Of a stretch of DNA of 51,078 bases, positions 20,573 through 45,056 are shown piece by piece. Position numbers and translations under genes: made by a program. Within the stretch, counting starts at the first letter, position 1. Each line of letters starts with the position of its first letter. Where the stretch lies: contig DATKAB010000060.1 in assembly GCA_035498555.1 (NCBI GenBank), positions 1-51,078 on the forward strand, written 5' to 3'. The stretch comes from Candidatus Sulfotelmatobacter sp. (lineage in GTDB: Bacteria; Eisenbacteria; RBG-16-71-46). The notes below the pieces were generated by a model that did no database searches, had not been told where the DNA came from, and worked only from the letters and a program-made list of their open reading frames with translations.

Positions 20573-22003
20573 TCAGCCGAGGCCCCCGGCCCGGCTCTGC
20601 GGAAGGGTCACCGTGAAGCACGCGCCCTGACCGGGCGGGCTGGTGGCCACGATGCGCCCGCCGTGATTGGTAATGATGCGATACGAGGTCGAGAGCCCGA
20701 ACCCATGGCCCTCGGCCTTGGTGGTGAAGTGGGGTTCGAAGATGCGGGCCAGATTGGAGGGCGCGATGCCGCTGCCGGTATCGGTGACCACCAGCTTCAC
20801 CTGGCGCGTGCGTTCGTCCCACGAGCTGGTGACGGCGATGATCCTGTCGCCGATGGTCTTCTCCTTCATGGCGTCGGCGGCGTTCATGAACAGGTTGAGC
20901 AGCACCTGCTGGAGCTGGCCGGGATCGGCGCGCAGCTCGGGCGACGGCTCGCTGAGCCGGATGTCCCACTCCACCCCGTCGAAGCGATTCTGGGCGCGAA
21001 CGAACTCGATCGAGCGCTGCACCAGCGCGTTCACCTCGACGCGCTCGATGTGGAGCTCGGCCGCCGAGAAATCCATCAGCCCTTTGGACAGACCCTCCAT
21101 ACGCTTGGACTGCTCGAGAATGATCTGGGCATTGCGGGCGACGTCGTCGAACCTCTGGCGCTCGGCGTCGCGCGCCAGCATCTGGGCGCGCCCGCTGATC
21201 GCGACCAGCTGGTTGCGCAGCTCGTGTCCGATCTCGGCCGCCATTTCGCCCTTCGCGGCCATGCGCTCGGTGTGGATCAGCTGCTGTTGCGTGGAGCGCA
21301 GCTCGAGGTGCCGGCGCGCCGACTCGTGGAGCATCTGCAGCGGCACGTAGAACAGCACGACGCCGATGTAGCGGATCGCCTCGTACGAGATCACCATCAG
21401 GGGGCTCAAGAGGAACGCCGCTGCATCTTCGAGCAGGCGCTCGGGGTAGAACCAGTCCTCGCGCAGCGTCCGCAGGTAGGGACGCTCGCTCGACCATGCC
21501 ACCGCGACACCCACCAGCGCGCGATTGACCAGCAGGTAGGCCACGAACAACCCGGCGAACGCGGGCGCGAGGCGAAACGCCAGCGCCTCGGTTCCCAACT
21601 GGAGCTGCTGGCCTTCGATGCCGGTACGCATCCCACCCAACCACCCGAACACCGCGCTCGCGAACCACATGGTGATGGTGATCTGACCGGCGTTGAAGAT
21701 CGCGCGCACGAACGGCTTTCGCTGCACGAATACCACGGCGAACAGGGTGCTGATCGCGGCGATCCACATCGCCGGCGCCTGGCCCCACAGCGCGGCGGTG
21801 GTGAGGTTGGCGGTCGAAGCCATGCTGACGGTGCCGCTCTTCGAGATCGTGGCGAGCCACATGGTTTCAGACAGCACCGAGATCACGGCCCAGGCCACGT
21901 AGTGCGGCCACCGCTCCTCGAGCCGCTCGGGCACGCACAGGATCAACAGCAGTCCGGCGGCGATCGCCACCACGCTGACGTACAGGCGCAGCTTGAGGCT
22001 CAT
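20573..22003 (-). CDS. Orphan membrane sensor histidine kinase
   Basis: A 476-residue sensor kinase. About six to seven hydrophobic helices occupy residues 5-225 and form an integral-membrane sensor I cannot assign to a family. Then comes the dimerisation/phosphoacceptor helix (H260 in AAEIGHELRNQL) and an HATPase with the N box (QQVLLNLFMNAADAM), G1 (VTDTGSGI), F (IFEPHFTT) and G2 (GHGFGLSTS) motifs. No response regulator is encoded in the window, so the partner is elsewhere. The ATG at 22003 overlaps the epimerase stop by 4 bases (ATGA), tying it to the bacillithiol/D-glutamate-like gene train. The long frame upstream of 22003 is a shadow. Confidence 0.88.
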   Translation of the reverse strand: MSLKLRLYVSVVAIAAGLLLILCVPERLEERWPHYVAWAVISVLSETMWLATISKSGTVSMASTANLTTAALWGQAPAMWIAAISTLFAVVFVQRKPFVRAIFNAGQITITMWFASAVFGWLGGMRTGIEGQQLQLGTEALAFRLAPAFAGLFVAYLLVNRALVGVAVAWSSERPYLRTLREDWFYPERLLEDAAAFLLSPLMVISYEAIRYIGVVLFYVPLQMLHESARRHLELRSTQQQLIHTERMAAKGEMAAEIGHELRNQLVAISGRAQMLARDAERQRFDDVARNAQIILEQSKRMEGLSKGLMDFSAAELHIERVEVNALVQRSIEFVRAQNRFDGVEWDIRLSEPSPELRADPGQLQQVLLNLFMNAADAMKEKTIGDRIIAVTSSWDERTRQVKLVVTDTGSGIAPSNLARIFEPHFTTKAEGHGFGLSTSYRIITNHGGRIVATSPPGQGACFTVTLPQSRAGGLG

Positions 22004-23022
22004 GCGCCCGCTCGGGCGGGTTCGACGCCGAGTCCGGGCCGATCGCTCAGCACGATGCGACCCAGCTCGCGCGGCGCGCCGCGGAATGGATCGTGGCGAA
22101 GCAGCCAGTGGCCGTCGAGATCGAGGTAGTCGGCGAGCGGCGCGACCTGCGCGGCCGCCGAGAGCGCCAGGCTGGTCTCGACCATCGAACCCAGCAGGAT
22201 CTTGAGTCCCAGCGCGCGCGCCGCGTGGATCATGCGCAACATCTCGCGAATCCCGCCGGTCTTCATGATCTTGAGGTTGACGCCGTCGGCCCGACCGTGC
22301 AGCAGCCCCAGATCGAGCAGGGTGTGGCAGCTCTCGTCGGCGAACACCGGGATACCCGAGCGCTCGCGCACCCAGCGCAGGCCGTCGAGATCCTCGCGCG
22401 GGACGGGCTGCTCGACCAGCTCGATGCCGAGCGGCTCGATCTGGCGGAGCACGCGCACCGCCTCGGCCGGACTCCACGCGGTGTTGGCGTCCACTTGCAG
22501 CACGCCCTGATAGCGCGCGCGGATCCGCTTGAGATTGTCGACGTCGCCGAGCCCGCCGAGCTTCACCTTGATGCGCGGGAAATCCAGCACGGTCTCGAGC
22601 TTCTTCTCCATCTCATCGGGGCTCGCCATGCCGAGCGTGACGCACGACACCGGCGTGGTGCGGGCGTCAAGGCCGAGCAGCCGCCAGACGGGCAGGCCGA
22701 GCTTCTTCCCGATCCAGTCGTGCAGGGCCATGTCGATCGCCGCGTGCGCCGCGGCGTTGCCGCGCAGCACACCCGCCAGCCGCCGCTCGATCGCTTCGAG
22801 CGCGAACGGATCCTCGCCGAGATGCGGCGCCCATGCTTCGAGCGCAGCCGTGACCAGCTCGCGAGTCTCGCCGTAGTAGTGGGACGGAGAGGCCTCGCCG
22901 ATGCCTTCGATCCCGTCGTGCTCGATCCGCACCAGCGTGTTGTCATGGTGAGTGCGAGCGCCCACCGCGATGCGGAACTCGAAGGTGGTCTGGACGTCCA
23001 GCGGCTCATGCCGAAGTCGCAC
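22000..23022 (-). CDS. Dipeptide epimerase / N-acetyl-D-glutamate racemase-like (enolase superfamily)
   Basis: A 340-residue enolase-superfamily epimerase of the muconate-lactonizing subgroup. The catalytic lysine motif KVK is at 152-154, metal ligands are D178 (VDAN), E204 (VEQP) and D229 (ADES), the opposite-face Lys251 is in NLK, and the DLDG signature of dipeptide epimerases is at 301-304. Known members invert Ala-D/L-Glu from peptidoglycan, while DgcA, a member of this family, racemises N-acetyl-glutamate. The upstream gene is DUF1611, the family of DgcN (D-glutamate N-acetyltransferase), and the two overlap by 17 bases, so a DgcN/DgcA-type D-glutamate route is as likely as a murein-peptide role. 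Confidence 0.88.
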   Translation of the reverse strand: MRLRHEPLDVQTTFEFRIAVGARTHHDNTLVRIEHDGIEGIGEASPSHYYGETRELVTAALEAWAPHLGEDPFALEAIERRLAGVLRGNAAAHAAIDMALHDWIGKKLGLPVWRLLGLDARTTPVSCVTLGMASPDEMEKKLETVLDFPRIKVKLGGLGDVDNLKRIRARYQGVLQVDANTAWSPAEAVRVLRQIEPLGIELVEQPVPREDLDGLRWVRERSGIPVFADESCHTLLDLGLLHGRADGVNLKIMKTGGIREMLRMIHAARALGLKILLGSMVETSLALSAAAQVAPLADYLDLDGHWLLRHDPFRGAPRELGRIVLSDRPGLGVEPARAGA

Positions 23023-24091
23023 GTCGCCTCCTCGACTCGAGGGCCGCGATCAACGCCTGGGCCAGCGCCTCGGCACCAAAGCGCACCGGATCCGTCGCCG
23101 GCAGCCCGGTCTCGGCCGCCGCCGCCGCGCACGCGGCGCGCGCCGCCGGCTCGGCGAGCGCGGCGGTATGGAGCGCCACGCCGAGTGCGCGCGCCGGGTG
23201 AACCCAGGCGGCGGCGCTTTCGTACACGCGCACCAACGCCGGAAGCGACGCCACCGGGCGAGGCGCATCCCCGGGCCGGCCGTAGTGGATCAGCGCGTGG
23301 TCGGATTGATGGCAGAGAATCAACGCCGATGGGCAAGCGCCGTGGAGCAGACTCAGAGTCACCCCCGAGTAGCCGGGGTGGTGGAGCGCGCCCTGGCCCT
23401 CGACCAGCACGATGTCGGCGTCGCGCGCCGCTTCGAGCACCAGCTTCTCGACCGTCCCGGCCACGAAGTCGGCGGGGATCGCGTCGATCGCGGCGCCCTG
23501 GTCGGCGACGAAGATTCCGGTCTGGCCGGTGGCGACGAACGCCGCGCGCACGCCTCGAGCCTCGAGCGCGGCGCGGATCTCGAGCGCCGCGGTCATCTTG
23601 CCGACGTTGCAATCGCTGCCGACGGTGAGCGCGACCAGCGCGTCGAGGCCGGCCGCGCGCGCCGCCGCCACCGGCTTTCCGGCGGGCGGGCGGCGTACGT
23701 CGTGGATGGCGGCGCCGCTCGCCCGCGCGCGCTCGCGGAATTCGGGATCGTCTCCGAGAAACGCATGCAGTCCCGACAGCACGTCCCAGCGACGCGACAG
23801 CGCGTCGTTCACCAGCGCGCGCCAGGCGGGTGGAAGCTCGCCCCCCTGCGGAGCGATCCCGATCAGGATCGAATCCGCGCCGCGCGCCGCGGCCGCGTCG
23901 AGTTCGGCGAGCACCGGCACTCCGCCGCCCACCCCCACGCAATCCGCGGCGGTGCGCCCCGCGTGCGTCGAGTCGAGCACGGCCACGACCTCCTCTGGCC
24001 GGTAGCGCAGCACGCCGACCGCGGTCTTCGCCTCTCCCGGCGCGAAGTGACCTTCCGCGAGCAGCACCAGCCGGCGTTTCCTGCCCAGCAT
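23006..24091 (-). CDS. DUF1611 family protein (DgcN-like, putative D-glutamate N-acetyltransferase)
   Basis: A 361-residue DUF1611 protein. An N-terminal Rossmann-like domain (residues ~8-135) precedes a P-loop domain with Walker A GSDCNVGKM (158-166), RAAFVATGQTG, VEGQGALHHPGYSGVTLSLL and HQSDHALIHYG. DgcN of this family N-acetylates D-glutamate with acetyl-CoA, whose product is racemised by the epimerase-family partner DgcA. The adjacent overlapping epimerase gene supports that assignment here by context, not proof. It starts 2 bases after bshA ends, so it is in the bacillithiol operon. Confidence 0.85.
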   Translation of the reverse strand: MLGRKRRLVLLAEGHFAPGEAKTAVGVLRYRPEEVVAVLDSTHAGRTAADCVGVGGGVPVLAELDAAAARGADSILIGIAPQGGELPPAWRALVNDALSRRWDVLSGLHAFLGDDPEFRERARASGAAIHDVRRPPAGKPVAAARAAGLDALVALTVGSDCNVGKMTAALEIRAALEARGVRAAFVATGQTGIFVADQGAAIDAIPADFVAGTVEKLVLEAARDADIVLVEGQGALHHPGYSGVTLSLLHGACPSALILCHQSDHALIHYGRPGDAPRPVASLPALVRVYESAAAWVHPARALGVALHTAALAEPAARAACAAAAAETGLPATDPVRFGAEALAQALIAALESRRRRATSA

Positions 24092-24093
24092 CG

Positions 24094-25311
24094 TCAGCGG
24101 AACGACTCGTAGACCTGGATGTACCGACCCACCATCTCGTCGATGTTGAAACGCTCCCGCGCCACCCGTCTACCGGCGCGGCCCATCTGGCGCCGCAGCG
24201 ACGCGTTCTCCAGCAGGCGCAGCACCGAGCTGACGAACCCCGCGGTGTGGCCCGAGTCGTGGAGATACCCGGTGACGCCGTGGTCGATCACCTCGGGCAG
24301 CCCGCCCGCGTTGGACGCCACCACCGGCACCTCCGCACTCATCGCCTCGAGCGCCACCAGCCCGAAGCTCTCGGAGGAACTCGGTAGGAGAAAGACATCG
24401 GCAAGCGGAAGGAGTTCCTCCATGCAATCCTGATTTCCGAGAAACAGGACGTCGCGCTCCACCCGCAGCTCTCGCGCCAGCTGCTCCGCACCGGCCTTTT
24501 CCGGCCCGTCTCCGACCATCACGAGCTTGGAAGGAATCCGCCGGCGCACCTCGGCGAAGATGTGAATCACCTGCGGGATGTTCTTGACCGGACGGAAGTT
24601 CGAGACGTGCATCAGCACCCGCGACTCGGGTGGCGCCAGCCGCAGCCCCGAGCGGCGGCGCGGCGCGAACACCGCCGGATCCACGAAGTTGTAGATCACT
24701 TCGATCGGCCGCGTGATCCCGAAGGTCTCCTCGGCCCGGTCCTTGAGGAAGCGGCTCACCGCCGTCACCCGATCACTGTTCTGGATGCTGAACTGGGTGA
24801 CCCGGAAGTAGGCTGGCTCCACGCCCACCACCGTGATGTCGGTGCCGTGCAGCGTGGTCATCACCCCGAGCTGCTTCGGCAGCAGCAGCTGGCGCGCCAG
24901 ATAGGCGCTGGTAGCGAACGGCATCGCGTAGTGGACATGGATCAGGTCGAGCTTGTAGTGCTCGGCCACCTCCACGATCTTGGTGGTGAGCGCGAGATTG
25001 GCCGGAGTCTGATCGAACACCGGGTACTCGGCCGGCATCGCCTCGTGGAAGAACACGTTGGATTCGAAGGCGCGCAGTCGGAACGGCAGTCGATGCGCGA
25101 TGAAGTGGATCTCGCAGCCGCGGCGCGCCAGCGCCATGCCCAGCTCGGTCGCCACCACGCCGCTTCCACCGAAGTGCGAATAGCAGACGATGCCGATGCG
25201 CAGCTTCGGATGCACCGCGCCGGCGAGGCGCGGCGCGGGCTTGCCGCGTCGGCGCGGACTCGCATCGGCACCGGCCGCGCGCGATCGCGTGACCCGCCGT
25301 CCCGCGCTCAT
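24094..25311 (-). CDS. bshA: N-acetyl-alpha-D-glucosaminyl L-malate synthase (bacillithiol step 1)
   Basis: A 405-residue GT4 glycosyltransferase joining UDP-GlcNAc and L-malate, the first step of bacillithiol synthesis. Family markers are GIVCYSHFGGSGVVATELG, HVHYAMPFATSAYLARQ, TTLHGTDITVVG, the NFRPVKN segment and the retaining-GT E(x7)E motif in SSSESFGLVALEAM. Immediate neighbours bshB and bshC make the specific assignment firm. An arginine-rich extension of about 35 residues precedes the domain; translation may start later. The ATG overlaps the bshB stop by 4 bases (ATGA, 25308-25311). Confidence 0.95.
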   Translation of the reverse strand: MSAGRRVTRSRAAGADASPRRRGKPAPRLAGAVHPKLRIGIVCYSHFGGSGVVATELGMALARRGCEIHFIAHRLPFRLRAFESNVFFHEAMPAEYPVFDQTPANLALTTKIVEVAEHYKLDLIHVHYAMPFATSAYLARQLLLPKQLGVMTTLHGTDITVVGVEPAYFRVTQFSIQNSDRVTAVSRFLKDRAEETFGITRPIEVIYNFVDPAVFAPRRRSGLRLAPPESRVLMHVSNFRPVKNIPQVIHIFAEVRRRIPSKLVMVGDGPEKAGAEQLARELRVERDVLFLGNQDCMEELLPLADVFLLPSSSESFGLVALEAMSAEVPVVASNAGGLPEVIDHGVTGYLHDSGHTAGFVSSVLRLLENASLRRQMGRAGRRVARERFNIDEMVGRYIQVYESFR

Positions 25312-26024
25312 GACTCGTCCCCCGCCCCGATCAACAAGCGCGCGTCGTGAACCCCGAGCGGGGCGCGCGTGCGGTAGCCTTCGCCGTGGCGCGCGCCGAT
25401 CGCCGCGCCCATCACGCGAGCGCGCGCCTCGATCTCGTCGAGGAAGCCGGGCTGCGTCAGGTAGGTGGTCGGCCCGCGGTCGGGGTCGAGCTGGCTCCGG
25501 TGCTCCCTCAGCGCCCGCATGCGCTTCTCCCAGACTTCGCTGACATCGACGATGAGATGCGGCCGCACGCTGCTCCGATACAACGCGAACAGCAGGCGCG
25601 ATGGCCGATGGCGCTCGCCGGGCGCCGCGAAACGGACCAGACCCGACAGGTAGCAGGCGCGCGCCACGAGATGCGAGGCCTCGACGTGATCGGGATGCGC
25701 GTCATCGGCGGAAGGCGCCACCACCAGTCGCGGGCGATGGGTGCGCAGCGCGGTCACGACTTCGATGAGCTGGGCGCGCAAGTGGCGATCGAGCCCGGTG
25801 TCGGGCAGCTCGAGATTCTCGCGAACGGTGACCCCCAGCACCCGCGCGGCGTTGCGCGCCTCGACCGCGCGCTCTTCGACGGTGCCGCGGCTCGCGGCCT
25901 CGCCCCGCGTCAGGTCCACGATGCCGACCGCGTGGCCATGGGCGGCCAGCCGCGCCGCCAACCCGGCGGAGGTCAGCTCGACGTCGTCGGGATGGGCGCC
26001 GAAGAACAGCGCGTCGAGCGCCAT
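25308..26024 (-). CDS. bshB1: Bacillithiol biosynthesis deacetylase
   Basis: A 238-residue LmbE/PIG-L zinc deacetylase that removes acetate from GlcNAc-malate in step 2 of bacillithiol synthesis. The zinc/catalytic motif AHPDD (H11, D13, D14) opens the protein, and the third ligand is in APSADDAHPDHVEAS. The C-terminal region with REHRSQLDP and GEGYRTRAPLGVHD matches BshB1-type enzymes. The ATG at 26024 shares one base with the bshC stop (TGATG), and the 3' end overlaps bshA. The open frame upstream to 27698 is a shadow of bshC. Confidence 0.95.
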   Translation of the reverse strand: MALDALFFGAHPDDVELTSAGLAARLAAHGHAVGIVDLTRGEAASRGTVEERAVEARNAARVLGVTVRENLELPDTGLDRHLRAQLIEVVTALRTHRPRLVVAPSADDAHPDHVEASHLVARACYLSGLVRFAAPGERHRPSRLLFALYRSSVRPHLIVDVSEVWEKRMRALREHRSQLDPDRGPTTYLTQPGFLDEIEARARVMGAAIGARHGEGYRTRAPLGVHDARLLIGAGDES

Positions 26025-27649
26025 CACAGCTCCAGCACGGCGTGCTCGAGCACGCCTTCGGCGAGCCGGCGCGCGTGCTCGGCGGCCAGCTCCTTCAACT
26101 CGTCGGCCACCGCGCGCCCGCGATACGCGACCACCTCCAGCGAGGCGAGGCGGCGCTCCTGAAGCTTGTCGCCGGGCAACAGGTAGTAGCGAAGGCGCAG
26201 CCATTCGGGATGCTGGCGCTCGAGCTTGTGGCGCACCTTGCCGGTCAGCCCCTCGAGCAGCCGCTGGAACTGGAAGTCGACCTTGCCGCGCGCCGATTCC
26301 ACCATCTGCGGCAAACTGGGATCCAGCGAACGCGCGGCGTCGGCGAATTCGGCGAGCCCCTCGAGGGTGGCGCGGTGGGCACGCTCGAGCGCCGCTCGCG
26401 GGCCCGCCGGCACCTCGCGCTCGGCGAACCCGCGCAGCACACCGTCCGCGTCCGCCACCACCGCGAACGGATCGGCGCCCGCCTGCTCGAGCAGCTCGAT
26501 CGCGGCCGGCGGCATCCAGGTCGCCGACAGCCGCGGCACCGGACAGGCCGGGACCACCTCGAGCGCCTCGAAGGCCTCGCGGAGCTGCGCCAGATAGGCG
26601 AGCTCGCCCGGTCCACACGCCATCGCCACCGTCGGCAGCACGGCGTCTTGCACCTCGGGCCTCAGGGCGACACTTGGACTCAGAGTCATCCGGTGCCGGC
26701 TGGAATCCGCGAGCGCCTCGTTCAGGTCGCACTTCCGGCGCACGCCGTTCTCGATCGCGAATACGAACGAATCGAGGGCGCTGTCGGCGAGCGCGCGATG
26801 AGCGCCACGGCGTTCGAGCTCGTCGCCGGCCGCGCGCACGCGTGCGCCGATCGTGTCGGCTCGCGCGAGATAGCGATCGATCACCGGGCGCGCCGCCTCG
26901 CGGAACGCAGCCAGGCGCGGGTCCACCACCACCAGGCCGTCGCCGGCGAACAACTGCAGCATCAGCGCGCCGTGTGCCTCGCCGAAGTCGCGAGCGCCCT
27001 GACGGGCCGCGGCCAGCAGCCCTCCGGTCTCGGCGACGTGCGGCAGCCCCGCCCACACCCTCATCGCCTCGGTCTCGAGCGCGCGGAGCGAATCGAGCCC
27101 GATGTGACCCACCAGCCCGCCCTCGACGCGGGCCTCGTCGGGCAGCGCCAGCTCGCGCAGGGTCAGCCCGGAATCCGCGAGCGAGGCGCCGCGGATCTCG
27201 GCGAAATCGGAATCCTCGCCGTGCATCCAGAACACCGGCACGCAGGGAACGCCCGTGCGCCGCTCGACTTCGATGGCGAGCCCCAGCGTCGCCGCGGTCT
27301 TGTGCAGCGAGTACAGCGGACCCCCGAGTGGCGCGGGCTGCTGGCCGGCGATCGCCGCCACGGCCTCTCCGCGCGCCAGCCGGTCGAGATTGGCGAGGGT
27401 GGCGCCGGAAGCACCCAGACGGCGATGCAGCTCGAGCAGCTCGCGCGCCAGCGCCGCCGGCAGCGGACCGCGCTTGCGTTCGGCCAGCTGGCGCAGCGCG
27501 CCGGTGTTGGACCACAGAGTCGCGAATCGTTGCACCGCGAGCGCCCCGCCCCGCGCGATCTGATCCGCGAGCGGATCGTAAAGTCGGTCCCAAGGCGGCT
27601 CGATCGAGGCCGGAACCCGGGCGCGAACGGTGAGCGTGCGCGTGCTCAT
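26024..27649 (-). CDS. bshC: Putative cysteine ligase BshC (bacillithiol step 3)
   Basis: A 541-residue BshC, adding cysteine to GlcN-malate to complete bacillithiol. Family signatures include IAGQQPAPLGGPLYSLHK, the nucleotide-like site VPVFWMHGEDSDFAEI, RPEVQDAVLPTVAMACGPGE and ELAYLAQLREAFE, then a C-terminal coiled coil. Length matches the family (about 540). The ATG at 27649 (MSTRTL) is chosen over one 60 bases upstream because the extension lacks family features; no clear ribosome site. It is the first gene of the operon bshC-bshB-bshA-DUF1611-epimerase-kinase. Confidence 0.95.
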   Translation of the reverse strand: MSTRTLTVRARVPASIEPPWDRLYDPLADQIARGGALAVQRFATLWSNTGALRQLAERKRGPLPAALARELLELHRRLGASGATLANLDRLARGEAVAAIAGQQPAPLGGPLYSLHKTAATLGLAIEVERRTGVPCVPVFWMHGEDSDFAEIRGASLADSGLTLRELALPDEARVEGGLVGHIGLDSLRALETEAMRVWAGLPHVAETGGLLAAARQGARDFGEAHGALMLQLFAGDGLVVVDPRLAAFREAARPVIDRYLARADTIGARVRAAGDELERRGAHRALADSALDSFVFAIENGVRRKCDLNEALADSSRHRMTLSPSVALRPEVQDAVLPTVAMACGPGELAYLAQLREAFEALEVVPACPVPRLSATWMPPAAIELLEQAGADPFAVVADADGVLRGFAEREVPAGPRAALERAHRATLEGLAEFADAARSLDPSLPQMVESARGKVDFQFQRLLEGLTGKVRHKLERQHPEWLRLRYYLLPGDKLQERRLASLEVVAYRGRAVADELKELAAEHARRLAEGVLEHAVLEL

Positions 27650-28013
27650 CCGGCCAACGGCGGACACGAGGGGCGCAAAGCGGACCGGCGAAGGGCAACC
27701 TCGAGGCAACGGAGCATCGGAGGCGGCATCTTAGGCTCTGTTCGAGAATGCCGCACGGGCCCGGACGGGAATGACCGTCCGCGCTTCATTGCCAGTCGTC
27801 GACAGCCGAGCCACCGCCAGTCTCCTCCTCGCGCTTTGCCCCGCCAGTCATTCCCGCTCGGCGTGCTCGCGGGGCATTCTCAGCCAGAGCCTAGCCCGAA
27901 GCGCTCGCCAGCCGCCACCGCGCCCGCCGGCACCCCGGGCGCCGCGACTCGGCGCCGGATCGCCCGCATCCTTGACGCTCTCCTCGCGCTTCCGACAATA
28001 TCGCCCGCCCGCC
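27650..28013. promoter_or_regulatory. Divergent intergenic region between bshC and the antiporter gene
   Basis: This 364-base gap holds no convincing gene. For bshC, a TAAGAT -10-like box lies at 27733-27728 (minus strand), about 79 bases from the start, with a weak -35. For the antiporter gene, TTGACG (27972-27977), 18 bases and CAATAT (27996-28001) precede the ATG at 28014 by 12 bases. I see no operator repeat. Confidence 0.4.
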
Positions 28014-39140: not shown

Positions 39141-40142
39141 GTGAAGATCGCGCTGTTTCTCCCCCACGTCGGCGTATTCGGCGGCGTCCGCCGCTTTCTC
39201 GAGCTCGGCAACAGCTGGACGGCGAGTGGCCACGCCGTGATGCTCTTCCATCCCGGCGGCGAGCCGCCCGCCTGGTTGGGATTCGCCGGCGAGGTGCGCA
39301 AGCTCGAAGCGGCCCGCCACCAGCGCTCGGACCTCGCCATCTCGGCCGACCCGCACACCTTCGATGCGTTTCGCCGCCACGAGTCGGCCCGCCACCTCTA
39401 TTACTGCGTGCTCGAGCGCGACCCGGGACTCGCCCTGGCGCTCCGCGACCGCGAGTTGCTGCTGGCCGCGAATTCGGGCCCGCTCCGCCGCGCGCTCGCC
39501 GCGCGCGCTCGCCGTCCGGTGCTCGACGGCATCGGCGGCATCCGGCTCGAACAGTTCCATCCCGCGCCCGAGCAGCGCGCCGATCGACCGCTGCGCGTGC
39601 TCCTGAACGGCCGGCGCTCGCGCGAAAAGAAGGGCACCGATCTGATCCTCGCCTCCCTCGAGGCGGTGCGGCGCAGCGTTCCCGAGTTCGAGACCGTACT
39701 GTTCGACAGTCTCGGGCCCGGCAACGCTCAGGACCCGCGTGAGGGCGCGCGGCTGCCGAGCAGCGCCCGCTTCGTGATCAATCCGAGCCAGGACCAGCTG
39801 GTCCGGCTCTACCAGTCCTGTCACGTGTTCGTGGCGGCCGAGCGGAAGGCCGGCTGGTGCAACACCGCGCTCGAAGCCATGGCCTGCGGGGCGGCGGTGG
39901 TCTGCACGCCGAGCGGCACCACCGATTTCGCGCGTGATGGCGACAACGCCCTGATGGTTCGCGTGCGCCACGCATGGTTTCTCTCGCGCGCGCTGCGTCG
40001 CGTGCTCGGCGATCCGGAGCTGCGCGCGAGGCTCAGCAGTCGGGCGCCGCTCGGGCTCGAACGATGGAGCTGGGATCGGCTGGCCGAGAAGCTCCTGAGC
40101 CAGCTGCCGGCGGAAGGCGCCGCCGGCGGGGCTCAGCGCTGA
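39141..40142 (+). CDS. Glycosyltransferase family 4-like protein
   Basis: A 333-residue GT-B glycosyltransferase. The N-terminal acceptor domain begins [21 protein letters not shown], the linker is [19 protein letters not shown] and the nucleotide-sugar domain contains [23 protein letters not shown] with the retaining-GT motif [22 protein letters not shown] (in part). The product is likely a surface polysaccharide or glycolipid. The GTG at 39141 is the only start near the domain edge; there is no Shine-Dalgarno. The last 10 bases overlap the convergent nuoI. Confidence 0.85.
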
Positions 40143-40579
40143 GGCAGGTAGCCCGACTTTTCGCGGCCCACCAGCAGCTCGTCCTTCGTATAGATGAACG
40201 CGTCGCGCCGGTAGTCGGAGAGCTCGAAGTCCTTCTCGAGGTAGATGGCGTCCTCGGGACACGCCTCCTCGCACATGCCACAGAAAATGCAGCGCAGCAT
40301 GTTGATCTCGTACCGCTCGGCGTAGCGCTCGCCGTGGGAGCTCGGGCGGTTCGGATCGTTTTCCGCGGCCTTGACGAAGATCGCGTCGGCCGGGCAGGCC
40401 ACCGCGCACAGCTCGCAGCCCACGCACCGCTCGAGACCGTCCTCGTGGCGGGTGAGGATGTGGAGCCCGCGGAAGCGGGGGGTCATCTGCAGCTGCTCGT
40501 CCGGATACTGGACGGTGAACGGCTTTCGGAACAGGTTCTCGAACGTGACGCCGAGCCCCGTCGCCAGCTCTTTCAGCAT
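40133..40579 (-). CDS. nuoI: NuoI-like 2x[4Fe-4S] protein (complex I subunit I)
   Basis: A 148-residue ferredoxin-type subunit carrying the N6a/N6b clusters that pass electrons toward quinone. Cluster ligands are C52/C55/C58 with C107, and C97/C100/C103 with C62. The context [17 protein letters not shown] and RFRGLH before the first motif, and the tail YTKDELLV, are specific for NuoI rather than generic ferredoxins. Oddly, no other nuo gene is in the window; the gene ends a mixed operon 75 bases after dcd. It may be a dispersed complex I subunit or serve another oxidoreductase. Confidence 0.88.
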
Positions 40580-40654: not shown

Positions 40655-41209
40655 TCACAAACGCGGCAGCGTGATGCCGCGCTGCCGCTGATACTTGCCG
40701 GCCTTGTCGCGGTACGAGGTCTCGCAGGGCTCGTCGCTCTCGAAGAACAGCACCTGAGCGATCCCCTCGTTGGCGTAGATCTTGGCGGGCAGGGGCGTGG
40801 TGTTGCTGATCTCGAGCGTGACGTGACCCTCCCACTCCGGTTCGAATGGCGTCACGTTGGTGATGATGCCGCAGCGGGCATAGGTGCTCTTCCCGACGCA
40901 GATGGTCAGGACATTTCTCGGAATCCGGAAGTACTCGATGGTGCGCGCCAGCGCGAACGAATTGGGCGGAACGATGCAAATGGGCCCGTGGAAGTCCACC
41001 ATCGAGGCCGGATCCACGTGCTTGGGGTCCACCACGGTGGACATGACGTTGGTGAAGATCTTGAATTCGTCGGCCACGCGGATGTCGTATCCGTAGGAAG
41101 AGATTCCGTATGACACCACGCCCTCGCGCACCTGCTTCTCTTCGAACGGCTCGATCATGCCGTATTCCCGGCACATCTTTCGGATCCAGTGGTCGGGCTT
41201 GATGGACAC
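40655..41209 (-). CDS. dcd: dCTP deaminase
   Basis: A 184-residue trimeric dCTP deaminase, making dUTP for dTTP synthesis. It shows [40 protein letters not shown] (catalytic/phosphate Arg region) and [21 protein letters not shown] with the catalytic Glu, then EGIAQVLFF. Monofunctional dCTP deaminase or bifunctional dCTP deaminase/dUTPase cannot be told apart with certainty. It begins 3 bases after the moaB stop. Confidence 0.95.
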
Positions 41210-41212
41210 TCG

Positions 41213-41740
41213 TCAGTCTCCGGGGGTGAGTCGTCCGAGCAGTCGCAGGGCGTGGGTCAGCTCGGGAATGAGCAGCTCGCGAAGTCCCAGCTCGACGGCC
41301 GCCGGGGAGCCGGGAAGGTAGGCCACCAGCCGCCCGCGAGCCACCCCGGCCCCGGCGCGCGACAGCCAGGCTGCGGCCCCGACCTGGCGGGACGATCGAT
41401 CGCGAAAGCGCTCGCCGAATCCCGGCAGCGCGAGGTCGAGCAGCGGCTCGACCGCCTGCGGAGTCACGTCGCGGGGCGAGACGCCGGTGCCGCCGGTCAG
41501 GAGCACCAGGTCGGCGCCGGTGGCCAGCGCCCGGCGCAGTTCACGCCGGATCGGCGCGATTCGATCGCGTACCCAGCGGCGCTCCATTACCCGATGCCCC
41601 GCCGCTCGCAGCAGCGCTTCCGCGCGTGCCCCGCTCACGTCGGTGCTGCTCCCGCGCGTGTCGCTCACCGTCACCACCACGCATTCGGCGGCGCGCTCAC
41701 CCCGCCGGCGCGCGGCATGCGCTCCACGGCGCGTGCGCAT
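41213..41740 (-). CDS. moaB: MoaB/MogA family molybdopterin adenylyltransferase-like protein
   Basis: A 175-residue member of the MogA/MoaB fold, which adenylylates molybdopterin before metal insertion. Family motifs are VVTVSDTRG near residue 21, the MPT-binding loop LLTGGTGVSPRDVTPQAV (80-97) and YLPGSPAAVELGL near the C terminus. No other molybdenum-cofactor genes are in the window. The ATG at 41740 is given, but an in-frame GTG at 41749 overlaps the upstream stop as GTGA and adds three residues, matching the junction style of this genome. The N-terminal Arg-rich stretch is likely disordered. Confidence 0.88.
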   Translation of the reverse strand: MRTRRGAHAARRRGERAAECVVVTVSDTRGSSTDVSGARAEALLRAAGHRVMERRWVRDRIAPIRRELRRALATGADLVLLTGGTGVSPRDVTPQAVEPLLDLALPGFGERFRDRSSRQVGAAAWLSRAGAGVARGRLVAYLPGSPAAVELGLRELLIPELTHALRLLGRLTPGD

Positions 41741-41745
41741 CGGCG

Positions 41746-42441
41746 TCACCGGGCCTGCTGCTCGGCCCACGTGGCGACGTCGCCGGCGCGCAACCCGAAC
41801 CGCCGCTGCCAGAGTTCGGATTCGGCCAGCCGCTGCTCCGCCACTTCCTCGAGCGGAGGCTCCCACGCCGGCTCGGGCGCCGAGCCCGCCGGAACACCCG
41901 CCGGCGGCCCGCCGGCCAGCTCGGACCACTCGGCCAGCGTCCGGGCTTCGGGCCCGGCGATGTCGAACCAGCCCTCCCAGGTCCCGCTCTGCGACAGCGC
42001 GTGATGCATCACTTCGACTACGTCGCGCTCGAGCACCGGCATCACCAGCGAGCGCGCGAAAGGCCCGAGCCGCGGCCGCGACTTCAGCCGGCTCCAGAAC
42101 GGGCTCGACTCGCCGATCAGCGGCGCCAGGCGAAGGACCAGGGTCGGGATCAGGCTGACGCGCGCGTACTCTTCGAGGCGCCACAGCTCGCGAAGGCTTT
42201 CCGCTCGCGCGTCGGGGTGAACCCCCATGCGGCTCAGCACCAGGATCCGTGCCCCGCGCGCGACGTGCCACGAACCGAACCACACTCCGAGCCGCATCCA
42301 GTCCACCGGTCGGGCGAGCAGCAGCGTCGCCCCGGGCCCGCCGGTCGGCGATTCCGACTCGACCACCGAATGACCGCGCGCCCCGAGGGCGTCGATCAGC
42401 CGGGGAACCGGGGCGTCGAAACGGCCGGGAACGTGGATCAT
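41746..42441 (-). CDS. Degenerate SDR / NAD(P)-binding epimerase-like protein
   Basis: A 231-residue protein resembling atypical extended short-chain dehydrogenases (NmrA/epimerase-like). The core (ILVLSRMGVHPDARAESLRELWRLEEYARVS, in part; TLVLRLAPLIG; PVLERDVVEVMHHAL; WFDIAGPEARTLAEWSEL) matches the second half of such proteins, but the N-terminal glycine-rich nucleotide motif is absent, the usual TGATG loop being replaced by HVPGRFDAPV. It may not bind NAD(P). The ATG at 42441 overlaps the upstream stop by 4 bases (ATGA). The in-frame extension to 43224 is a shadow. Confidence 0.65.
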   Translation of the reverse strand: MIHVPGRFDAPVPRLIDALGARGHSVVESESPTGGPGATLLLARPVDWMRLGVWFGSWHVARGARILVLSRMGVHPDARAESLRELWRLEEYARVSLIPTLVLRLAPLIGESSPFWSRLKSRPRLGPFARSLVMPVLERDVVEVMHHALSQSGTWEGWFDIAGPEARTLAEWSELAGGPPAGVPAGSAPEPAWEPPLEEVAEQRLAESELWQRRFGLRAGDVATWAEQQAR

Positions 42442-43487
42442 CGCGAGGCCGCGAGCGCGCGCTCGATCTGCCGCCGGTGCGACGCCTCGTGCTCGACCCA
42501 CGACCGCACCGCGTCGGCGACCGAGTACGGACCGCGTCGCGAATGGATTCCGCGTCGCGCCCATTCGGTGGATCGGAGCGGCGCGAGCCGTTCGAGCGCC
42601 GTCCGCCGCGACTCGCGCCAGCGCTCGATCTGCGCCCGGGGCGCGAGCCCCGGGGTGCCGGCCGAGGCGCGGATCGCGATCAGATCCACCTCGGGCAGCT
42701 CGGGACGCTCTTCGCGCAGCAAGCGCTCGAGGCGGGGTCCGAACACGTGGGCGTCGGATTCGAGCAGGTGGGCGACGACCTCGTGAGCGCTCCAGCGATC
42801 CGGGCCCGGCCGGCGCGTCCAGCGCGCCTCGCCGCTCACTTCGAGGAGCGAGGCCGCCCAGCCCGGCGCCTCGGCCAGCGCGGCCAGCCGCTGGCCCCAT
42901 TCGAGGTGACTCATCGCCGCGGGCGGGAGCCCGCGCACTCCGAGCGGGTGATCCGCCGCCGGGATCGGCTGGCCGAATCCGCGCGCCAGATACTCGCGCG
43001 ACAGCGCCACGTAGTGACGGTTGCCGTCGCGGATCGCGGCGCGATGCGACTCCTGAACCGGTCCCAGCACCCGTGCCGGCGCTCCCACCACCAGGCTCCC
43101 GGGCGGGATCTGCTGGCCTTCGCGCACCAGGGCGCCCGCCCCCACCAGCGAGCCGGTGCCGATATGGGCACCGGAGAGCACGATCGAACCCATGCCGATC
43201 AGGCATTCGTCCTCGATCACGCACCCGTGCACCACCGCGCGGTGCCCGACCGTCACTCGCGAGCCGATCAGGGCCGGTTGGCCCTCGTCCACGTGGACCA
43301 CGCTCAGGTCCTGCAGGTTGGTCTCCTCGCCCACCTCGATCCGGTCGGTATCGCCGCGAATCACGGTGTGGAACCAGACGCTGGCGCGCGGGCCGATGCG
43401 CACGGATCCGGTCACGACCGCCCCGGTGGCGAGGAACACGCTGGCGTCGATCTCGAGGTGAGTCTGCCAGCCGGTCGCCTGGCTCAT
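42438..43487 (-). CDS. Gamma-carbonic anhydrase fused to a DinB-family domain
   Basis: A 349-residue two-domain protein in one uninterrupted frame. Residues 1-175 are a left-handed beta-helix gamma-carbonic-anhydrase-like domain (RIGPRASVWFHTVIRGDTD, NLQDLSVVHVD, VTVGHRAVVHGCVIEDE) with putative zinc ligands H65, H82 and H87, and SLVVGAPARV. Residues ~192-349 are a DinB four-helix domain with its metal triad H240 (VVAHLL), H333 and H337 (WVEHEASHRRQIE). DinB relatives include bacillithiol and mycothiol S-transferases. An in-frame ATG at 42914 (M192) falls at the domain boundary, so separate translation of DinB is possible. ATG 43487 overlaps the MBL stop (ATGA). Confidence 0.82.
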   Translation of the reverse strand: MSQATGWQTHLEIDASVFLATGAVVTGSVRIGPRASVWFHTVIRGDTDRIEVGEETNLQDLSVVHVDEGQPALIGSRVTVGHRAVVHGCVIEDECLIGMGSIVLSGAHIGTGSLVGAGALVREGQQIPPGSLVVGAPARVLGPVQESHRAAIRDGNRHYVALSREYLARGFGQPIPAADHPLGVRGLPPAAMSHLEWGQRLAALAEAPGWAASLLEVSGEARWTRRPGPDRWSAHEVVAHLLESDAHVFGPRLERLLREERPELPEVDLIAIRASAGTPGLAPRAQIERWRESRRTALERLAPLRSTEWARRGIHSRRGPYSVADAVRSWVEHEASHRRQIERALAASR

Positions 43488-44128
43488 CCCAGCACCGCGC
43501 GCTCGCCCACGAAGGGATTGGTCCGGCGTTCGATGCCGATCGTGGTGGCGGGCCCGTGCCCTGGATAGCAGCGCACCTGGTCGCCGAGCGTGAACAGCCG
43601 GGTCCGGATCGTCCGCTCGAGCAGCTCCCACGAAGCGCCGGGCAGATCGGTGCGTCCCACCGAACCCGCGAAGAGCGTGTCGCCCACCCACAGATCGTCG
43701 CCGTGCCGGAAGCAGACTCCGCCCGGAGAGTGTCCCGGCGTGTGGATGACCTCGAGGGCGGATTCGCCGATCGCGAGGCGCTGGCCGTCGGCCAGGTCGC
43801 GCAGGTCGACCGGCGGATCGGCGGGCGGCAGGCCGAACAAGATGCCCTGCTCCGCGATCCGCGCGAGCAGCGGGCGATCCGCGGGATGGAGCCAGCAAGG
43901 CAACGGCAGCACCTGCTGCACCGCGAGCATGCCGCAGGCGTGATCGTAGTGCGCGTGGGTGAGCAGCAGCAGCTCGAGCTTCACGCGCTCGCGCGCGATG
44001 CGCTCGAGCACCGCCTCGGGCTCGAAGCCCACGTCGATCACGGCCGCGACGCGAGTGGCATCGTCCACCAGCAGAAAGGTGTTGTTGTCGAGCGGGCCGA
44101 GATTGAGCGTGATCGCCGTCAGCGGCAC
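43484..44128 (-). CDS. MBL-fold hydrolase (glyoxalase II-like)
   Basis: A 214-residue metallo-beta-lactamase-fold enzyme with all binuclear metal motifs: THAHYDH (H58, H60, D62, H63), HTPGHSPGGV, VGDTLFAGSVGRTD and CYPGHGPAT. The order and the GSVGRTDLPG segment are typical of glyoxalase II / hydroxyacyl-thiol hydrolases, which cleave thioesters of low-molecular-weight thiols. As the organism makes bacillithiol, a bacillithiol thioester is a reasonable substrate (inference). It is 31 bases downstream of the TIM-barrel gene and overlaps the carbonic-anhydrase/DinB gene. Confidence 0.9.
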   Translation of the reverse strand: MPLTAITLNLGPLDNNTFLLVDDATRVAAVIDVGFEPEAVLERIARERVKLELLLLTHAHYDHACGMLAVQQVLPLPCWLHPADRPLLARIAEQGILFGLPPADPPVDLRDLADGQRLAIGESALEVIHTPGHSPGGVCFRHGDDLWVGDTLFAGSVGRTDLPGASWELLERTIRTRLFTLGDQVRCYPGHGPATTIGIERRTNPFVGERAVLG

Positions 44129-44159: not shown

Positions 44160-45017
44160 TCAGGCCGCCTCCCAGCTCTGCTGCAGGTGCACCGCGTCGT
44201 CCTCGAGCGCCGGACTCTCGCACACCACCCAGCCCCGGACGCCCAGCGCCTTGAGCGCGCGCAACAATTCGCCGTAGCGGAATGCGGACTCGCGCAGCGG
44301 CACGTGCCGCCGCTCCCCCGAGGGGCCGAACTCGATGCCGGCGATGTGCACGTGCAGGGATTCGAGCGCCTCGGGACCCAGCCGGCGGCGGATGATTTCG
44401 AGCATGTCGGCGAAGTCGTCGAACCGATTGGGCTCGCCCTGCAGCCGGGCGTAGTGATGCGAGAAGTCGATGCAGGGTCGAACTCCGGGAATCATCTCGC
44501 ACCACATCAGCGTCTCGTCGAACGAGCCGATCTGTGAAGGCCTGCCGGTCAGCTCGGGACGCACGTCGATCGCCACGCCGCGCTCGCGAAGGGCGCGGGT
44601 GACTTCGAGCAGAGCACGCCACACCCGCACCCGTGCGTGGTGCGGATCCTGGCCGCCGAGAAAACCCGGGTGGAAGCAGAAGCTGCGCGCGCCGCAGCGC
44701 GCGGCCAGAACGCCGGTCTCGATCAGGCGCCGAACGCTGCGGTCGATGGTGTCGCGGTCCCCGCACAGATTGAGGTAATAGGGAGCGTGGGCGGTCAGCT
44801 CAAGGCCGGTCTCGCGTGCGGCCCGGGCGATGCGATCGGCGGTCTCGGGCTTCATTCGCACCCCGTTCCCCCACGCCATCTCGAGGCAGGTGAGGCCCAG
44901 CTCGGCGGCCCGACGAATGCCGGCTTCGGTGGCGGGTCGAGCGCTGGAGCGCGGAATTCCCGAGGTCCCGAAGCGCGGGCGCTCCGGCGCGAGGCGCGAA
45001 TCAGGCGTGGGGTCCAT
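44160..45017 (-). CDS. TIM-barrel protein (endonuclease IV / xylose isomerase-like)
   Basis: A 285-residue AP-endonuclease-2-family TIM barrel. Metal-site candidates are present in the family order: HAPYYLNL (as in Nfo HAPY), CFHPGFLGG, DVRPELTGR (Glu), PCIDFSHHYAR and HVHIAGIEFG. The Glu-Asp-His-His pattern fits an endonuclease IV-like or sugar isomerase/epimerase-like enzyme, but it is shorter and more divergent than true Nfo, so a DNA-repair role is not assured. The ATG at 45017 has no ribosome site but a good promoter 10 bases upstream, making this the head of the operon that runs to nuoI. Confidence 0.82.
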   Translation of the reverse strand: MDPTPDSRLAPERPRFGTSGIPRSSARPATEAGIRRAAELGLTCLEMAWGNGVRMKPETADRIARAARETGLELTAHAPYYLNLCGDRDTIDRSVRRLIETGVLAARCGARSFCFHPGFLGGQDPHHARVRVWRALLEVTRALRERGVAIDVRPELTGRPSQIGSFDETLMWCEMIPGVRPCIDFSHHYARLQGEPNRFDDFADMLEIIRRRLGPEALESLHVHIAGIEFGPSGERRHVPLRESAFRYGELLRALKALGVRGWVVCESPALEDDAVHLQQSWEAA

Positions 45018-45027
45018 GGCGCGAAGC

Positions 45028-45056
45028 ACGGTACGGAGGGCTCAGACCGCGGTCAA
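45028..45056 (-). promoter_or_regulatory. Promoter of the TIM-barrel-to-nuoI operon
   Basis: TTGACC (45056-45051), 17 bases, TACCGT (45033-45028), then 10 bases to the ATG at 45017. It sits in the 50-base gap after the outer-membrane protein gene. No Shine-Dalgarno lies near the ATG. Confidence 0.6.

Follow-up and report, generated by a model that had tools for sequence, protein, structure and literature searches.

The 51,078-nucleotide window, that is, the whole stretch of DNA analysed here, carries on its reverse strand a gene in which a gamma-carbonic anhydrase (CA) is joined in frame to a DinB domain. The reality of this CA::DinB fusion was confirmed and its gene boundary was corrected: the original prediction had covered 42438-44128, of which 42438-43487 holds the fusion, and the remainder, 43484-44128, is a separate gene for an MBL-fold hydrolase. 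The architecture combines two known enzyme families in a way that is new and narrowly distributed. In the reading preferred here, to which we give about an even chance, it is a lineage-specific fusion derived from an operon, in which a CA trimer would carry tethered DinB thiol transferases and the two halves would work largely independently. The gene and its parts are the following:

42438..43487 (-): gamma-carbonic anhydrase::DinB fusion gene, 349 aa, ATG at 43487
42978..43460 (-): gamma-CA (CamH-type) domain, aa 10-170, with ligands H65, H82 and H87
42915..42977 (-): variable linker, probably flexible, aa 171-191, low confidence
42438..42914 (-): DinB / YfiT-BstA-like four-helix domain, aa 192-349 plus stop, with the triad H240, H333 and H337

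A single reading frame with two domains

The interval 42438-43487 (-) is a single open frame with zero internal stops, in which Pfam recognises hexapeptide repeats (best stretch aa 88-122, E 3e-14) and a DinB_2 domain (aa 213-341, E 6.6e-12; 46 bits against a cut-off of 24.8). Long open frames are common by chance in this window because its DNA is 70% GC, and the fusion frame stays open up to 44135, across the hydrolase gene, where it is a mere shadow lying outside the fusion protein. For the fusion itself a chance open frame was ruled out, since 15 relatives with 47-59% identity conserve both halves complete in one frame, and two more do so up to the contig ends that cut them. The joining of a gamma-CA and a DinB domain in one frame, as initially proposed, is thus borne out, and the histidines 65, 82, 87, 240, 333 and 337 were all found at the positions then numbered.

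The sample behind these comparisons comprised 20 genomes of one Ca. Eisenbacteria family, with the window's own included and the named relatives being Candidatus Eisenbacteria. Coding sequence for CA::DinB is present in 19 of them: 16 copies have both domains complete and in frame; those of G019 and G011 run off the end of a contig but still span the join, and that of G014 has a frameshift inside the CA, on an error-prone contig. An assembly artefact was discarded as the source of the fusion, since on the contig of this sole broken copy dcd and dnaK likewise match in fragments only.

That two genes were misread as one, either through an assembly error or because the DinB domain is translated separately from M192, is extremely improbable. 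A methionine does occur at this same place in most relatives, and it is possible that it represents a relic start codon of the DinB domain. However, the halves are not separated by a stop in any family member, near 42914 or elsewhere, no Shine-Dalgarno-like stretch was found before M192, and the corresponding codon is not a usable start in some relatives (CTG in L015, a lysine codon in L022), which led to the rejection of separate DinB synthesis. In the linker region mean identity is 33% (aa 167-190), and the predicted model has a pLDDT below 50 (aa 170-187).

The predicted metal sites

The closest matches of the CA half are CamH-type gamma-CAs, and its left-handed beta-helix is indicated by Pfam Hexapep and PDB gamma-CA matches. 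R44, D46, N57, Q59, D60, H65, H82 and H87 are invariant in all 17 alignment rows. With the exception of N57, which is conserved although outside the published list, these are the counterparts of Arg45, Asp47, Gln60, Asp61, His66, His84 and His89, the residues described as catalytically important in gamma-CAs (PMC8000050). The best NCBIfam family is gamma carbonic anhydrase NF050158 (E 4.6e-50), at 169.7 bits and thus below the 250-bit cut-off, and the half was classed as a gamma-CA by its fold and site residues, not as an NF050158 equivalog. The second-best family is PaaY (E 5e-30), with 104.5 bits against a cut-off of 319.6.

The acidic loop and the counterparts of Cam Glu62 and Glu84 are absent from the CA half, since in the alignment the residue that follows D46 varies and no loop is inserted. 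The Cam proton-shuttle glutamates are missing from CamH-type CAs, some of which have no detectable CO2 hydration; the T. thermophilus gamma-CA, for example, lacks both glutamates and its activity was not detected (PMC8000050). Yet PaCA-gamma-1 is active, being also devoid of Glu84 (PMC13261364). Hydration of CO2 by the CA half is likely, without being assured. The CamH-type enzymes (Thermus thermophilus gamma-CA, P. aeruginosa PaCA-gamma-1 and M. thermophila CamH) have in common with the CA half the hexapeptide-repeat beta-helix, the three His ligands and the Arg/Asp/Gln/Asp site, with neither acidic loop nor Cam proton-shuttle glutamate on either side; the known enzymes are single-domain, however, whereas the fusion adds a linker and a C-terminal DinB domain. 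The fold and ligands are also those of PaaY, a bifunctional gamma-CA/thioesterase whose thioesterase action has been described (PMC13261364), but PaaY is a single-domain protein of phenylacetate gene clusters and the CA half scores far below its family cut-off.

As to the DinB half, the solved structures nearest to it in profile searches were BH0186 (2RD9, E 1.1e-28) and then YfiT/BstA (1RXQ, E 1.1e-16). The same two ranked first when the fold of the predicted model was compared, at about 18-24% identity in the fold alignments; the model pLDDT over this half, taken in blocks, is mostly 79-96, with a dip to 63 at aa 271-280. H240, H333 and H337 align with BstA H67, H160 and H164, and the triad is kept in 16 of the 17 alignment rows. 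In addition, R294, H315 and Q340 (fusion numbering) are invariant across fused and paralogous DinB domains. BstA and BH0186 thus present the same four-helix bundle, His triad and 93+4 spacing, but neither is fused, whereas the DinB half sits behind a gamma-CA and its thiol transfer is predicted only. Both the intact metal triad and the likeness to bacillithiol S-transferases claimed at the outset are supported, the former by the alignment to BstA and the latter by profile and predicted fold.

In B. subtilis all eight superfamily members (8/8) are metal-dependent bacillithiol transferases, with only the three His common to all (PMC5815605). By homology, the DinB half is probably a bacillithiol-type thiol transferase. 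Bacillithiol as the thiol is only presumed, because the DinB superfamily also holds mycothiol- and ergothioneine-related enzymes, along with many members without known function. The genome to which the window belongs (G000) encodes at least three further DinB-family proteins (C66, C207 and C138; L152-L154), which are possible other thiol transferases.

Gene order, distribution and origin

The fusion lies within a run of closely spaced genes:

44160..45029 (-): xylose-isomerase-like TIM barrel (AP_endonuc_2), upstream, same gene run
43484..44128 (-): MBL-fold hydrolase, YcbL/glyoxalase II-like, upstream, 4-bp overlap with the fusion start
41746..42441 (-): 231-aa protein, 4-bp overlap with the fusion stop
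41213..41740 (-): MoaB/MogA-like molybdopterin domain protein
40655..41209 (-): dCTP deaminase (dcd)
40133-40579: NuoI-like two-cluster ferredoxin, a conserved member of the run, downstream of dcd

In the window, the gaps from the TIM barrel to Dcd do not exceed 31 bp, with the 4-bp overlaps on either side of the fusion. The order TIM barrel-MBL-CA::DinB-231-aa protein-MoaB-Dcd-NuoI-like ferredoxin is conserved in the family, the 231-aa protein (41746-42441), for which no Pfam or NCBIfam match was found, being kept in most but not all genomes. Over nearly its whole length the hydrolase matches YcbL, a type II hydroxyacylglutathione hydrolase (2XF4), and the MBL protein 2ZWR, which agrees with the glyoxalase II-like neighbour first suggested; in comparison with those proteins it is assigned by sequence match and only adjoins the fusion. 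A link to complex I, raised by the co-occurrence of a gamma-CA and a NuoI-like ferredoxin, was abandoned, since the gene between dcd and the ferredoxin in G020 is, by eye, an MBL-type hydrolase and not a Nuo subunit.

In the other families of the phylum that were sampled the CA stands alone. Profile searches of two heavily overlapping samples of 385 genomes each, across Bacteria, gave many stand-alone CAs and no CA::DinB outside the family among the listed matches, with the caveat that a fusion with a very divergent DinB could be missed. Likewise, two other phyla, represented by 39 and 17 genomes, yielded no CA::DinB, none of 77 loci from other phyla had a DinB gene near its CA, and no published description of the architecture was found in the open-licence literature.

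The sister family (L137) displays the order MBL-CA-stop-dcd, with dcd directly after the stand-alone CA, and in comparison the family with the fusion has an extra block of DinB, 231-aa protein and MoaB between CA and Dcd. The fusion most probably has a single origin, in the ancestor of this Ca. Eisenbacteria family, through insertion into the operon of a block, carrying moaB and a DinB/BstA-like gene, after a CamH-type gamma-CA gene; loss of the CA stop codon would then have produced CA::DinB. The hydrolase-CA pairing is older than the addition of DinB, and the pair is found without DinB in G020 and G012.

Two family members depart from the common arrangement. In G012 (L023:1480-2514, VBOY01000125.1) the CA continues in frame into a MoaB/MogA-like domain, and DinB and the 231-aa protein are absent; in G004 (L021:1486-2454) the fusion is kept, with all three DinB His lost and no Pfam DinB score. 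The CA is intact in both, and bsh genes and hydrolase also remain despite the lost or disabled DinB. Both cases look, provisionally, like later losses because a tree nests them inside the family, near G003; the tree is a quick one with a long outgroup, and single origin followed by losses depends on it. The position of G012 near G003 and G004 is accordingly probable rather than certain. Across the family, the aligned sequences indicate that DinB diverges faster than the CA (mean pairwise identity of 47% versus 69%).

Bacillithiol genes and the working of the two halves

The bsh genes announced for the same window are all present:

24094-25311 (-): bshA
about 25308-26018 (-): bshB1
26024-27709 (-): bshC

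Matches to bshA and bshC occur in 20 of 20 family genomes, meaning that the fusion is not confined mainly to genomes devoid of bsh. This co-occurrence says little, however, because bsh is nearly universal in the phylum, with 41 of 47 genomes scoring above the bshA cut-off, whether or not they carry the fusion. In the window about 15 kb separate bsh from the fusion, with unrelated genes in between, including dnaK and a glycosyltransferase. In family genomes with CA and bsh on one contig the distance is about 13-21 kb, and in four of them bsh is downstream on the same strand. No paper naming Eisenbacteria together with bacillithiol was found in the open-licence literature.

In the preferred reading, the CA half would form the usual trimer and hydrate CO2 at inter-subunit metal sites, with each subunit carrying a flexibly tethered DinB bundle. 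Once it had bound a divalent metal, this bundle would activate a low-molecular-weight thiol for S-transfer to an electrophile, with bacillithiol as the likeliest thiol. The two halves would be largely independent, their join reflecting operon neighbourhood more than a coupled reaction, because the CA is kept where DinB is not, DinB diverges faster and the linker is variable and of low confidence. Equally, cooperation of the halves could explain why 19 of 20 genomes have the fusion and nearly all of these the triad.

The original prediction had gone further and suggested that fusion and hydrolase may be a bacillithiol-dependent detoxification module. In a dedicated module of this sort DinB would conjugate the thiol to an electrophile or form a thioester, and the hydrolase, the CA half or both would release the product and recycle the thiol. 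A BstA-like DinB domain, a YcbL/glyoxalase II-like neighbour overlapping by 4 bp, bshA and bshC in every family genome, bsh downstream on the same strand in four, and the thioesterase action of PaaY on a gamma-CA fold (PMC13261364) are all consistent with it. The module was not borne out, though: bsh is phylum-wide and far away, the hydrolase accompanies the CA without DinB in the sister family and in G012, two family members lost or disabled DinB while keeping bsh, hydrolase and CA, and no thiol theme runs through the operon, which includes dcd and moaB as well. We regard such a module as decidedly unlikely. A bifunctional enzyme coupling CO2/bicarbonate or thioester chemistry on the CA trimer to bacillithiol transfer by DinB, with the hydrolase recycling the thiol, is quite improbable.

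An unlikely role for the CA half is that of a PaaY-like thioesterase, or of a structural trimer scaffold for DinB, instead of a carbonic anhydrase. The rank of PaaY as second-best family and the gamma-CA homologues without detectable CO2 hydration (PMC8000050) point that way; against this, gamma carbonic anhydrase is the best family (even if below its cut-off), every residue listed as catalytically important is kept, and the CA is retained, and better conserved, even where DinB was lost. The state of DinB in G004 and G012 and its faster divergence would, for their part, suit a neutral fusion in which the DinB half is a passenger kept only through its join to a needed CA. This is very improbable, as the triad together with R294, H315 and Q340 persists in 16 or more of the 17 rows, where the mean identity is about 47%, which indicates selection on the site.

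If the DinB half is a bacillithiol transferase, the architecture would link a gamma-carbonic anhydrase with the chemistry of low-molecular-weight thiols, in a phylum for which bacillithiol appears not to have been studied; if the coupled bifunctional enzyme were true, it would represent a thiol-dependent pathway that is new and restricted to a single Eisenbacteria family. Since no natural substrate is known for the bacillithiol transferases of B. subtilis (PMC5815605), any lineage in which the partner is fixed offers a useful lead. The locus also provides a natural series, whose members are the CA on its own, CA::DinB, the CA joined to a decayed DinB, and CA::MoaB; with it one can test if the fusing of genes in an operon generates function or merely tracks their order.

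Some further observations concern the surroundings of the bsh genes. In the window they are adjoined by DgcN-like and DgcA-like genes (22000-24091). In another family of the class (G037:C65, G023:C20 and G027:C17) a stand-alone CA and bsh share one contig, with bsh about 28 kb downstream of the CA on the same strand, which may reflect old regional synteny or chance.
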